NCBI RefSeq assembly: GCF_022760925.1
Contig: NZ_JAKTNT010000007.1
Coordinates: forward strand, 1 to 64,000
Source of the DNA: Thermus hydrothermalis
GTDB taxonomy: Bacteria; Deinococcota; Deinococci; Deinococcales; Thermaceae
DNA length: 64,000 nucleotides
Direction of reading: 5' to 3'
The stretch's first letter is position 1. Each line of letters starts with the position of its first letter. A program made the translations under genes and the position numbers. Of the stretch, positions 35,055 through 38,699 are shown piece after piece. A model generated the notes under the pieces. It was not told the DNA's origin. It made no database searches and worked only from the letters and a program-made list of their open reading frames with translations.

Positions 35055-35070
35055 ATATAGAAACCAACAC

Positions 35071-35098
35071 TTGACAATCTATAAATCAATGGTTTACT
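35071..35098 (+). promoter_or_regulatory. Strong promoter of the small-protein operon
   Basis: A perfect -35 TTGACA (35071-35076) and TTTACT (35093-35098) are spaced 16 bp apart, inside an AT-rich island (about 35051-35106) that stands out from the GC-rich surroundings. AAACCA (35061-35066) and TGGTTT (35090-35095) form an inverted repeat around the core promoter, a possible operator. An AGGAGGT ribosome site follows at 35108-35114. Confidence 0.7.
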
Positions 35099-35118
35099 CT
35101 TTTAAACAGGAGGTGGCC

Positions 35119-35307
35119 ATGGGGCTTGGGCACTGGGACCGGGAGGCCCTCCTGGAGCGGTACCGGGAGCGCCTTTGGGAGGCGGAGCGGGAGAGGCGTC
35201 TCCTTCCCCTGCGCCGCCCCTGGCGGGTACGGCTTGCCCAGGCCCTGTGGCGCCTGGCCCAGGCCTTGGCGCCCGAGGAGCGGTGGGAGGTGGCCCGTGG
35301 AGGCTAA
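35119..35307 (+). CDS. Small charged protein (62 residues), first gene of unknown operon
   Basis: A 62-residue protein. An Arg/Glu-rich helix (residues 6-26) is followed by PWRVRLAQALWRLAQALA, an amphipathic helix with three Trp/Arg faces suited to membrane-surface binding. No family is recognised. It has a strong SD four bases before ATG and lies behind the strongest-looking promoter in the window. It overlaps the next ORF by 11 nt. Confidence 0.65.
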   Translation: MGLGHWDREALLERYRERLWEAERERRLLPLRRPWRVRLAQALWRLAQALAPEERWEVARGG

Positions 35308-35614
35308 GGGACCCCTTCTGGAGACGCTACGGGCAGGCGCCGCTACCCCGGAGGAGGCCTTGGGGGGATGGGGCGTGGAGCTCCCGGTGGGCAACCTGGA
35401 GGCAAGCCTTCCCGTGCGGGGGGGTGCACGCCGGCTTTGGGTGGGGCTAGGCCACGCTAAGCTCCCTTTCCTCCCTGGCTCCAGGAAGGCGGTGGTGGCC
35501 CAAGCCCAAGGGGGCCACGTGGCCTGGGGAGGGAATGGGCTTGGGGACGGCTGGGCCCGCCTGGAGGCCTGGGTGCGGCTTGGCAATCGGGAGCTTTGCC
35601 CGAAGGAGGCGTGA
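35297..35614 (+). CDS. Unknown protein (105 residues) with an SHOCT-like start
   Basis: Starting at GTG 35297, inside the previous gene, this frame encodes 105 residues. Residues 6-21 (LLETLRAGAATPEEAL) echo the SHOCT-like helical hairpin of the next gene. The rest is Gly/Trp-rich beta sequence. The frame is open further upstream but only antisense-like sequence lies there. The stop overlaps the following ATG by one base, so translation is coupled. Confidence 0.6.
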   Translation: MEAKGPLLETLRAGAATPEEALGGWGVELPVGNLEASLPVRGGARRLWVGLGHAKLPFLPGSRKAVVAQAQGGHVAWGGNGLGDGWARLEAWVRLGNRELCPKEA

Positions 35615-35982
35615 TGGAAGAGAAGCGGAAGGTCCTGGAGATGGTGAAGGCGGGGGAGATCGGAGTGGAGGAGGCCCTGGCCCTTCTAGAAGCCCTGGGG
35701 GGTGGGCCCAAGGCCTCCTCCCCGGCCCGGCTTTTGCGGGTGCGGGTGGACGGCCACGACGAGGGGAAGCCGGTGAAGGTGCACGTTAACCTCCCCCTAG
35801 CCTTGGCGGAGCTCTTGGAGAAGCTCCTCCCCGAGGAGGCCCAGCTCACCCTGGGGCGCCAGGGGGTAAACCTGAAGGAACTCCTGGCGGCCTTGGGCCA
35901 AGGGGTGCCGGAGGGGAAGCTGGTGGAGATAGAGGCGGAGGAGGAAGGCAAGCCCGTGCGCATCCTGGTGGAGGTGGTTTGA
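35614..35982 (+). CDS. SHOCT-like domain protein (122 residues)
   Basis: A 122-residue protein. The N-terminal ~25 residues (KVLEMVKAGEIGVEEALALL) match the SHOCT-like helical hairpin found at the head of YvlB/LiaX-type envelope-stress proteins. The remainder alternates strands and a Leu-rich helix with no adhesin-like beta helix. A GAAGGAGG ribosome site precedes ATG 35614. Its role is unknown; a protein-protein adaptor is the natural inference. Confidence 0.7.
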   Translation: MEEKRKVLEMVKAGEIGVEEALALLEALGGGPKASSPARLLRVRVDGHDEGKPVKVHVNLPLALAELLEKLLPEEAQLTLGRQGVNLKELLAALGQGVPEGKLVEIEAEEEGKPVRILVEVV

Positions 35983-36245
35983 AGGCGTCCTTTGCCCTTC
36001 GTCCTCGCTTTCTCTACCTGTGGGTGTGGGTGGGAAAGGTTCCATTGGGGCTCCTCCTTCCCCTTTGCCTCCTGGAAGGGCTCTTCTTGGGGCTCCTTTG
36101 GGTGGAGAAGAGGCGGGCCCTCCGGGGCCAGCCCCCTCGGGTTTCCCTTCCCCCTAGGGCGGTCTTTGCCTTGCGGGCGCTTCCGCCCGTGGTCTTCTTG
36201 GAGGTGGAGGCGGAGGGGGTGAAGGTAAAGGTGGGACTATGGTGA
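35979..36245 (+). CDS. Small membrane protein (88 residues)
   Basis: An 88-residue protein with a basic start (MKASFALRPRF when TTG is read as Met), one long TM region over residues 12-42, then a cytoplasmic RRALRGQPPRV loop and a beta-rich end. Unrecognised. The TTG start overlaps the preceding stop by 4 nt and the end overlaps the DUF2089 gene by 7 nt, so all five cistrons are tightly coupled. Confidence 0.55.
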   Translation: MKASFALRPRFLYLWVWVGKVPLGLLLPLCLLEGLFLGLLWVEKRRALRGQPPRVSLPPRAVFALRALPPVVFLEVEAEGVKVKVGLW

Positions 36246-36622
36246 TGCGACCGCTTCCCGTGCGTTGCCCGGTTTGCGAAAGCCCGTTGGCGGCGAAGGT
36301 CCTTTTCTGCCCCGCCTGCGCCACGGAGGTCTCCGGGCGCTTCGCCCTAAACGAGTTCGCCCTCCTTTCCAAGGAACACCTGGACTTCCTGCGGCTTTTC
36401 GTGAAGGCCCGGGGGAACCTCAAGGAAGTGGAGCGCCTCCTCGGGGTTTCCTACCCCACGGTGCGGGCCCGGTTGGACGCTTTGCTTCGGGCTTTGGGCT
36501 ACGAGGACGAGGCGGAGCCGGAGGGGGCGGAGGCGGCGCGCCTGGAGGTCCTGGAGGCCTTGCGCAAGGGGGAGATCAGCGTGGAGGAGGCGGTGGCGCG
36601 CTTGCGGGGAGGGAAAAGCTGA
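36239..36622 (+). CDS. DUF2089-family zinc-ribbon / HTH protein
   Basis: A 127-residue protein. A zinc ribbon (CPVC at 10-13 and CPAC at 24-27) is followed by a helix-turn-helix (KEVERLLGVSYPTVRARLDALL) and, at the C-terminus, an SHOCT-like hairpin ([19 protein letters not shown]) matching the one two genes upstream. DUF2089 proteins look like DNA-binding regulators, so this is the likely regulator of its own operon. An internal ATG at 36245 is an alternative start. The last 47 bases overlap the kinase gene on the other strand. Confidence 0.78.
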   Translation: MVMRPLPVRCPVCESPLAAKVLFCPACATEVSGRFALNEFALLSKEHLDFLRLFVKARGNLKEVERLLGVSYPTVRARLDALLRALGYEDEAEPEGAEAARLEVLEALRKGEISVEEAVARLRGGKS

Positions 36623-37982
36623 AGGCCGTTCCTTTGCCCACCTCGCTTTCCACCCAGATCTCTCCCCCGTGGGCCTCGAGGATGGCCTTCACGATGGAAA
36701 GCCCAAGCCCCGAGCCCCCCCGTTCCCGGTCCCGGGCCTTGTCCACCCGGTAGAAGCGCTCAAAGAGGTGGGGGAGGTGCTCCTCGGGGATGCCTTCCCC
36801 GTCGTCCTCCACCCGCACCACCACCTTGTCCTCGAGGTCAAAGGCCCTTAGCCACACGTGCCGGGCCCCGGCCTTGAGGCTATTGGACACCAGGTTGGCC
36901 AGGACCTGGTGGAGCCTATCCGGGTCCCCCCGCACGTACACCTCCGGGGGGGCCTCCACCAGGATCTCCCCCTCAAAGCTCCGCTTGAACTCCTCCCGCA
37001 CCTCCTCCAGGAGGTCTAGGACGCGCACGGGGACGGGCTCTATGCGCCAGCTTCCGCTTTGGGAAAGCTCCAGGAGGTCGGAAACCAGCTTTCCCATGCG
37101 CTCGGCCTCCCGCTTCACGGTCTCCAGGCTTTCCCGCTGGACCTCGTTGAGGGGGGTGCGGCGGAGGAGGTAGCCCACGTGGCCCAGGATGGCGGTGATG
37201 GGGGTCCTAAGCTCGTGGGAGGCGTCTTGGAGGAAGCGGGTCTGGGCCAAAAAGGCCTTCTGCATGCGGGAAAGCATCCCGTTTAGGGCCTTGACCAAGG
37301 CCGCCACCTCGTCCTCCCCTTCGGGCTCGGGCAGGGGCTCGGGGCGCTCGGGCATGGCCTCCGCCTTTTTGGCCACCCACTCCAGGGGGGAAAGGGCCCG
37401 GGCCACCAGGCTTCGCGCCAGCAGGACGCTAAGGAGGAGCACCAAAAGGGCGGTGCCGGCGTAGATGCGGGTGAACTGGGTGAGGGTGGCCTCTATCTCC
37501 TCCGTGGGCCGCCCCACCAGGAGGAGGCCCTTCCACACCGTGCCGGCCACGTTCACCTCCACCCGGCGGGCGTAGACGAGAAGGGGAAGGGGCCTCCCTT
37601 CCCGGGGTAGCTCCACCCGGGCCCAGACCTCGCCCCGGGCCAGGAGGAGGCGGTAGTCCTCCTCCTTCAGGAGGAGGCGCCCGCTTCCCAAGGCGGGGCT
37701 TTTCTGGAGGCTAATCCCCCCTTCCCGGGCCAGGAGGGCGGGGTCTTCCTCGGGTAGGAGCTGGAGTTCAGCGTAAAGGCCAGCGGGAAGGCCCGCCTCC
37801 AGGAGGGGCTGCCCCCCCAGGTTGAGGAGGCGCACCACCTGGTTGCTGGCCTCCAAAAGCTCCGCCCGGAGGCTACGGTAGAGGAAGCTCCGCAAGACCC
37901 CTTCCAGGGCTAGCCCCAGGACCAGAAGGGTGACGAAGAGGAGGCCCGCCGTGAGGAGGGTGATGCGGGTGCGCAGGGTCAT
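36576..37982 (-). CDS. Two-component sensor histidine kinase
   Basis: A 468-residue membrane kinase. TM1 is at residues 8-28, followed by an extracytoplasmic domain of about 145 residues, TM2 near 176-196, HAMP, and then HisKA with the phospho-acceptor His in [18 protein letters not shown]. The ATPase domain has N, G1 ([22 protein letters not shown]) and G2 ([13 protein letters not shown]) boxes. Autophosphorylation should feed the response regulator encoded 9 nt upstream. The sensed signal is unknown. Its 3' end overlaps the convergent DUF2089 gene. Confidence 0.93.
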
Positions 37983-37991
37983 GGAGGAGGG

Positions 37992-38666
37992 CTAGTCCTC
38001 CCTCAGGACGTACCCCACGCCCCGCACCGTGTGGATGAGGCGGCGCTCCCCCCCGGCCTCCAGCTTCTTGCGCAGGTAGCCGATGTACACGTCCACCACG
38101 TTGCTTCCCCCTTGGTAGCCTGGCCAGACCTTTTCCTCAATCTCGTAGCGGCTAAAGACCTTGCCCGGGTTCTTGGCGAGGAGCTCTAAAAGCTCAAACT
38201 CCTTGTTGGAAAGCTCTATGCGCCGTCCTGCCCGGAAGACCTCCCGCCCCTCCACGTTGATGATGAGGTCCGCCACCCGGATCTCCCCGGTGATGGCCGG
38301 GCTTACCCGGCGCAGGTGGGCCCGCACCCGGGCGAGGAGCTCCTCAATGGAGAAAGGCTTCACCAGGTAGTCGTCCGCCCCGGCGTCCAGGCCCTCCACC
38401 TTGTCCTCCACCCGGTCCTTGGCGGTGAGGATGAGGATGGGCACGTTGGAGGTCTTGCGGATGCGCTTGGCCACCTCAATCCCGTCCATCACGGGAAGCA
38501 TCAGGTCCAGGATCACCAGGTTGGGGTTCACCTCGCGGAAGCGGGAAAGGCCGGTGATGCCGTCGTGGGCCACCTCTGTGCGGTAGCCCTCCGCCTGGAG
38601 CTCTAGCTCTATGAAGCGGGCGATGTCCTTCTCGTCCTCCACGATGAGGATCAAAGGGGGTTCCAT
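37992..38666 (-). CDS. OmpR-family response regulator
   Basis: A 224-residue regulator. The receiver domain (residues 5-118) has EDEKD, phospho-acceptor Asp in [13 protein letters not shown], conserved Thr/Ser and Lys in KPFSIEEL. The winged-helix DNA-binding domain (128-224) ends [14 protein letters not shown] 38666 is preferred because TATCCT (38679-38674) ends 7 nt before it; the GTG at 38684 would overlap a palindrome. Confidence 0.94.
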
Positions 38667-38683
38667 ACCCCCCAGGATACTCA

Positions 38684-38699
38684 CTTTCTCATGAGAAAG
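38684..38699. promoter_or_regulatory. Perfect 16-bp palindrome between hlyIII and the response regulator
   Basis: CTTTCTCATGAGAAAG sits between the hemolysin III stop and the response-regulator -10. Its position just upstream of the -10 suits an operator, perhaps for autoregulation. It is short of GC and lacks a T run, so a terminator is less likely. Confidence 0.5.

Follow-up and report, generated by a model that had tools for sequence, protein, structure and literature searches.

A reduced DUF2089–Toastrack operon of Thermus hydrothermalis with a conserved candidate operator and a new family of small proteins

The stretch of Thermus hydrothermalis DNA analyzed here (64,000 nucleotides from the start of contig NZ_JAKTNT010000007.1, referred to hereafter as the window) carries five overlapping cistrons on the + strand (P1–P5; 62, 105, 122, 88, and 127 codons), spanning 35119–36622 and driven by an AT-rich promoter within an otherwise GC-rich genome. 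Successive reading frames share overlaps of 1–11 nt, confirming the tight coupling described in a first-pass annotation made from the sequence. The candidate operator, promoter, and genes are as follows.

35055–35063, + strand: candidate operator half-site 1 (ATATAGAAA), 5′ of the −35 element; aligned as AAATRKAAA in 88 promoters, with an autocorrelation peak at 22 bp
35071–35076, + strand: −35 element TTGACA, from the sequence and alignment with relatives
35077–35085, + strand: candidate operator half-site 2 (ATCTATAAA), in the spacer; repeats half-site 1 in direct orientation with a 22-bp period
35091–35098, − strand: inverted candidate operator half-site 3 (GGTTTACT), with consensus GGTTTAYA; shares bases with the −10 element and is conserved at positions +20 to +27, counted from the start of the −35 element
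35095–35100, + strand: −10 element TACTCT after an 18-bp spacer, from alignment (TATAAT in relatives)
35108–35113, + strand: Shine–Dalgarno sequence AGGAGG of P1, from the sequence
35119–35307, + strand: P1, 62 residues; first gene behind the operator, of an unnamed family of ~60 residues
35297–35614, + strand: P2, 105 residues, GTG start; SHOCT-like and Toastrack remnant with its middle deleted
35614–35982, + strand: P3, 122 residues; SHOCT-like hairpin (residues 2–32) and an unnamed ββ-ααα-ββ domain (residues 38–122)
35979–36245, + strand: P4, 88 residues, TTG start; ββ-α-α-ββ with one hydrophobic 20-residue helix
36239–36622, + strand: P5, 127 residues; DUF2089 protein with zinc ribbon (10–41), HTH (43–89), and SHOCT-like tail (101–122)

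The operon is preceded by a gene resembling hemA (so named on sequence grounds) and one resembling cytochrome-c-assembly genes; on its downstream side, in convergent orientation, are a histidine kinase (36576–37982) and an OmpR-type response regulator (37992–38684). The 3′ ends of P5 and the kinase overlap on opposite strands by 47 bp (36576–36622), and in two Thermus genomes that have lost the operon (G025 and G032) just the last ~60 residues of P5 are kept, this overlapped end included. Comparison of Thermus species shows purifying selection on four of the five genes (dN/dS 0.05–0.23); measured against the sister species G029, the individual values are 0.14 for P1, 0.21 for P3, 0.23 for P4, and 0.05 for P5, with P2 evolving neutrally at 0.99.

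The arrangement extends well past this strain, and so passes the gene-order check named in the first-pass annotation: the order operator–P1–P2(–P2)–P3–P4–(MFS)–P5 is kept throughout the Deinococcota, some genomes adding another P2 or an MFS gene. Bacillota and Chloroflexota carry the order P5–Toastrack–P3–P4, or parts of that set. Other Thermus species have variously lost P1, P2, P1–P4, or nearly the whole operon.

P5 is a DUF2089 protein, with an HTH core matching PF09862 (E 4.9e-24, 84 bits against a cut-off of 33.4) and an N-terminal zinc ribbon matching PF22747 (E 2.8e-11, above cut-off), matches that support its initial reading as a zinc-ribbon/HTH regulator. The C-terminal tail resembles the SHOCT-like hairpin PF22746 at E 0.003 (17.5 bits, below the Pfam cut-off of 27). 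The protein is 100% identical to P5 of Thermus brockianus YIM 77927, the nearest named genome, and DUF2089 is present in 105 of the 111 genomes of the phylum; the zinc cysteines are not kept throughout, having been lost in many f5 relatives. Our literature search found neither a DUF2089 protein with a known target nor experimental papers on the P1–P5 operon in Thermus.

The N-terminus of P3 forms a SHOCT-like hairpin (PF22746, E 2.4e-9), a family matched by all 41 of 41 P3 relatives; when the whole genome is ranked against PF22746, P3 (1.3e-9) and P5 (0.003) are the best two proteins, the next standing at 0.2. Sharing of this hairpin made the P3, P4, and P5 profiles of the first iterative search drift, and they were replaced by domain-limited ones. 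Of 50 Thermaceae genomes, 45 have relatives of P3, which are also found in Bacillota and Chloroflexota; those of P4 are found across the phylum and in Bacillota. The P3 hairpin scores 16.5 bits against the LiaX model (E 0.0027), where 350 are needed, and past the hairpin no Pfam or PDB relative of P3 was found. The predicted structure of P3 has two strands, three helices, and two strands (pLDDT 69), and in that of P4 (pLDDT 80) the hydrophobic helix of 20 residues and a short one are framed by two strands on either side, such that the models of P4 and the P3 C-domain share an order of elements. Profile comparison of the two was not significant (E 0.04–0.14), so a common origin, as hinted at by the models, is only a suspicion. 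Foldseek and VIA-align searches for solved folds gave nothing convincing (best Z 4.8 for P3 and 3.4 for P4). In Thermus sp. JCM 17653 (L190:416–913) a deletion joins P3 in frame to P4, so that the matching part of P4 takes the place of the last part of the P3 domain.

P2 is best described as an internally deleted SHOCT–Toastrack protein. Most other genomes of the phylum encode at this position a protein of 215–330 residues whose SHOCT-like N-terminal part is followed by a long β-rich region; the Bacillota counterparts are Toastrack proteins (DUF4097, Pfam) that match the Deinococcota profile with E-values down to 3e-17. The 105-residue P2 of the window retains ~21 N-terminal residues and the last ~80, aligning to positions 147–240 of the 247-position profile of its relatives (E 1.6e-11), and Pfam no longer recognizes its hairpin. 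The Toastrack protein is intact in other Thermus, Meiothermus, and f2–f5 genomes and not intact here; among sister species, G046 has a broken P2 and G043 has none. Being shortened, neutrally evolving, and broken or missing in sisters, P2 carries its hairpin as a fossil, and any complex formed here must do without this decaying Toastrack partner. That P2 acts as an independent functional protein is ruled out by its dN/dS and partial profile coverage. The first-pass annotation had placed a shared hairpin motif in P2, P3, and P5; the likeness survives profile searches, the second check named there, clearly in P3 and weakly at the P5 C-terminus, whereas a functional hairpin in P2 has to be given up.

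P1 belongs to a new, unnamed family of ~60-residue proteins found in 54 operons of the phylum; comparison of P1 with Pfam returned no family. In most members the most amphipathic stretch falls at a conserved C-terminal segment, often as a cationic amphipathic helix, but the copy in the window does not exceed shuffled sequences in this respect, which leaves the early description of P1 as a membrane-surface peptide weak. Searching by protein alone yielded 22 P1 paralogs, two of which have strong operator sites (38 and 45 bits), indicating that most paralogs are outside operator control. One paralog stands ahead of an ABC transporter gene lacking an operator (G109, L268), a pairing that recurs in other genomes with an operator. 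A P1-like small gene immediately precedes DUF2089 in Caldilineae (Chloroflexota, L250:3191–3469), and P1 may therefore predate the Deinococcota.

Alignment of 88 promoters reveals that conserved bases extend well beyond the −35 and −10 elements, giving the consensus AAATRKAAA-N7-TTGACA-AAATRTAAA followed by GGTTTAYA over the −10 element. This conservation spans five families of the phylum; the autocorrelation reaches 0.55 at a lag of 22 (0.24–0.40 at other lags), and half-sites 2 and 3 form near-perfect palindromes in relatives. The AT-rich promoter that had been recognized at the outset is real, but neither its near-consensus character nor its register stands: a strict sigma-70 scan detected no promoter, which argues against near-consensus elements, and a −10 element TTTACT after a 16-bp spacer is ruled out by alignment to relatives having TATAAT (the aligned element being TACTCT at 18 bp).

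The sequence of this region is nearly unique in each genome. The window has one match to the 30-base pattern, against 0 expected from shuffled sequence, and there the operator fits the consensus pattern with zero mismatch, and TTGACANNNTRTAAA has a single occurrence in the genome with up to 1 mismatch. At two mismatches or fewer, the pattern has 95 matches in 74 of 111 genomes (5 for a reversed control pattern), mostly one per genome and located at the P1–P5 operon. Position weight matrices, with each family held out of training in turn, place the operon site at the top of ~10–13 thousand positions for 78 of the 85 loci, a count that masking of the −35 and −10 hexamers lowers to 68; the operator of the window scores 70 bits, the next place in the window −5.6. 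This is a conserved 45-bp candidate operator, nearly unique per genome and new here. The same operator was not seen outside the Deinococcota, where Bacillota and Chloroflexota relatives show other AT-rich repeats: DUF2089 operons of these phyla (L249–L252 and others) have TTAAG-type repeats near TTGACA, possibly operators of a different specificity.

Sites beyond the operon fall ahead of a small set of genes. Eight precede P1 paralogs (L163, L165–L168, L170, L171, and L173), one of these, in G097, being followed by P1 plus an ABC-2 transporter; ABC-2 transporter genes also follow sites in G063 and G064 (the ABC-2 sites occurring in g13 and g24 genomes), and an MFS gene does so in G053. The orthologue of the operator-bearing ABC transporter in the Thermus genome studied here has no site. 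These sites look regulon-like, and they are new here; the recurrence of exporters would be consistent with a response to membrane-active compounds. In two f5 genera (L172 and L176) an ammonium transporter gene is preceded by a weak operator-like site (two mismatches), and MFS genes repeatedly adjoin either a stand-alone operator or DUF2089/SHOCT genes, within the Deinococcota as well as in other phyla (L251, L261, L082, L069, and L179). One Meiothermus-group locus (L171, G020:C237) has the operator and P1, with P2–P5 not detected in an assembly that is fragmented and 92% complete.

We propose that the P1–P5 operon is a reduced membrane-stress module of the DUF2089–Toastrack class, akin to the PSP and Lia systems, in which P5 autoregulates at the operator (a probability of roughly 0.6). 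Self-regulation, raised already by the first-pass annotation, is plausible because the conserved operator lies in the operon's own promoter. P5 would be a one-component regulator (zinc ribbon, HTH, and SHOCT-like tail) that sits on the two direct half-sites, 22 bp apart and flanking the −35 element, and on the inverted half-site at the −10 element, thereby repressing its own promoter. P3 and P4 (elsewhere also the SHOCT–Toastrack P2) would form an assembly at the membrane surface, whose SHOCT-like hairpin could engage the P5 tail; a membrane disturbance would then remove P5 from the operator or reset it there, and expression of the operon would rise, accompanied in relatives with more sites by that of further P1 peptides and ABC or MFS exporters. 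We infer each of four elements of this scheme: P5 as the binder, repression rather than activation, pairing of the hairpins, and membrane damage as the signal. A wider proposal, tentative yet with a serious chance of being right, is that a membrane-stress regulon extends across the Deinococcota with DUF2089 proteins as its DNA-binding regulators. Marked by half-sites of the form TRTAAANC (a direct pair at 22 bp plus an inverted one), it would control the new P1 family and exporters, and the regulators would be held or released by SHOCT-like hairpins that they share with their operon partners, not by phosphorylation.

Direct repeats are often bound by OmpR-family regulators, and one alternative is that the adjoining OmpR-type two-component system binds the operator and activates the operon while P5 acts elsewhere. 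The kinase is the convergent neighbor of the operon in Thermus and f4 genomes, and in other organisms Lia-type Toastrack systems work through two-component systems (PMC11237479). Against this stand the natural deletions. One Thermus genome (G039) has lost P1–P4 and kept the operator together with a complete P5, and three others (G025, G032, and G048) have lost the operator and have P5 only in truncated form; the neighboring kinase is intact in all four (at 83–86% identity in the three operator-less genomes) and is therefore not tied to the operator. Meiothermus and f5 genomes, moreover, keep the operator–operon pair with the kinase elsewhere, the constant partner of the operator being P5. The joint loss of operator and P5 in the three genomes could reflect single contiguous deletions; even so, the pattern of losses favors P5 over the two-component system as the binder, and retention of the kinase in operator-less genomes makes ownership of the operator by that system quite unlikely.

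An activating or architectural P5, in a stress-related operon whose AT-rich repeats serve partly as an UP element of a strong constitutive promoter, is an unlikely reading as well. The position of half-site 1 is that of an UP element, and the poor −10 element of this strain (TACTCT) and its 18-bp spacer are as in activated promoters, but half-sites 2 and 3, located in the spacer and over the −10 element respectively, are outside any UP element, and the conservation is sequence-specific (T-R-T-A-A-A), has the 22-bp period, and is nearly unique per genome. We consider it highly improbable that decay has left this species with an operon of little function: the neutrality of P2 and the gene losses in other Thermus species would suit such decay, yet the other four genes are under the constraint described above and the operator matches its consensus pattern perfectly.

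Returning to P5 as autoregulator, the module has published counterparts. Ravi et al (2024, mSystems, PMC11237479) describe a four-gene DUF2089–Toastrack context, for which their text proposes lia-like signaling from membrane to transcription on the basis of gene neighborhoods. The present operon likewise unites DUF2089, SHOCT-like, and Toastrack genes with a proposed PSP-like membrane role; it differs from the context in that text in that P5 is last rather than first, P1 is added as the first gene, the Toastrack protein is a decaying remnant, and an operator is defined. Deinococcota and Thermus are not named in the main text of that paper. Since P2–P5 match this published set, the original suggestion of an undescribed system is not supported: the operon is a real, conserved, reduced variant of a published kind, and its new features are the operator, the family of P1, and the additional sites found outside the operon.

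The full-length P2 relatives resemble LiaX and YvlB (liaXYZ, yvlABCD) in their SHOCT-like N-terminus and Toastrack C-domain; proteins of these two kinds serve in envelope stress elsewhere, YvlB being known to interact with PspA and LiaH (PMC9239133) and LiaX to tune LiaFSR output against membrane peptides (PMC10269926); unlike those systems, the regulator is DUF2089 and P3 bears another C-terminal domain. The presumed task and the partner domains recall the PspABC phage shock protein system, although neither PspA nor PspC lies in or near the operon; the genome has one PspA, on another contig, and PspC is absent from the whole genome, so that the Lia-type PspC partner is missing. A DUF2089-annotated gene beside a small membrane protein is also reported in the leaderless bacteriocin clusters of enterocin DD14 and thucin A (PMC7332713, PMC9484092), which share with the P1–P5 operon the adjacency of DUF2089 and small-protein genes but differ in their bacteriocin context and, in the text of those reports, describe neither P3 nor the operator.

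The nearly unique 45-bp operator makes the DUF2089 proposal directly testable by a binding assay and offers a handle for regulon mapping in Meiothermus and Trueperaceae. If true, our reading would show how membrane trouble may be sensed in thermophiles that lack PspC, and would assign the new small-protein family P1 to the membrane response.
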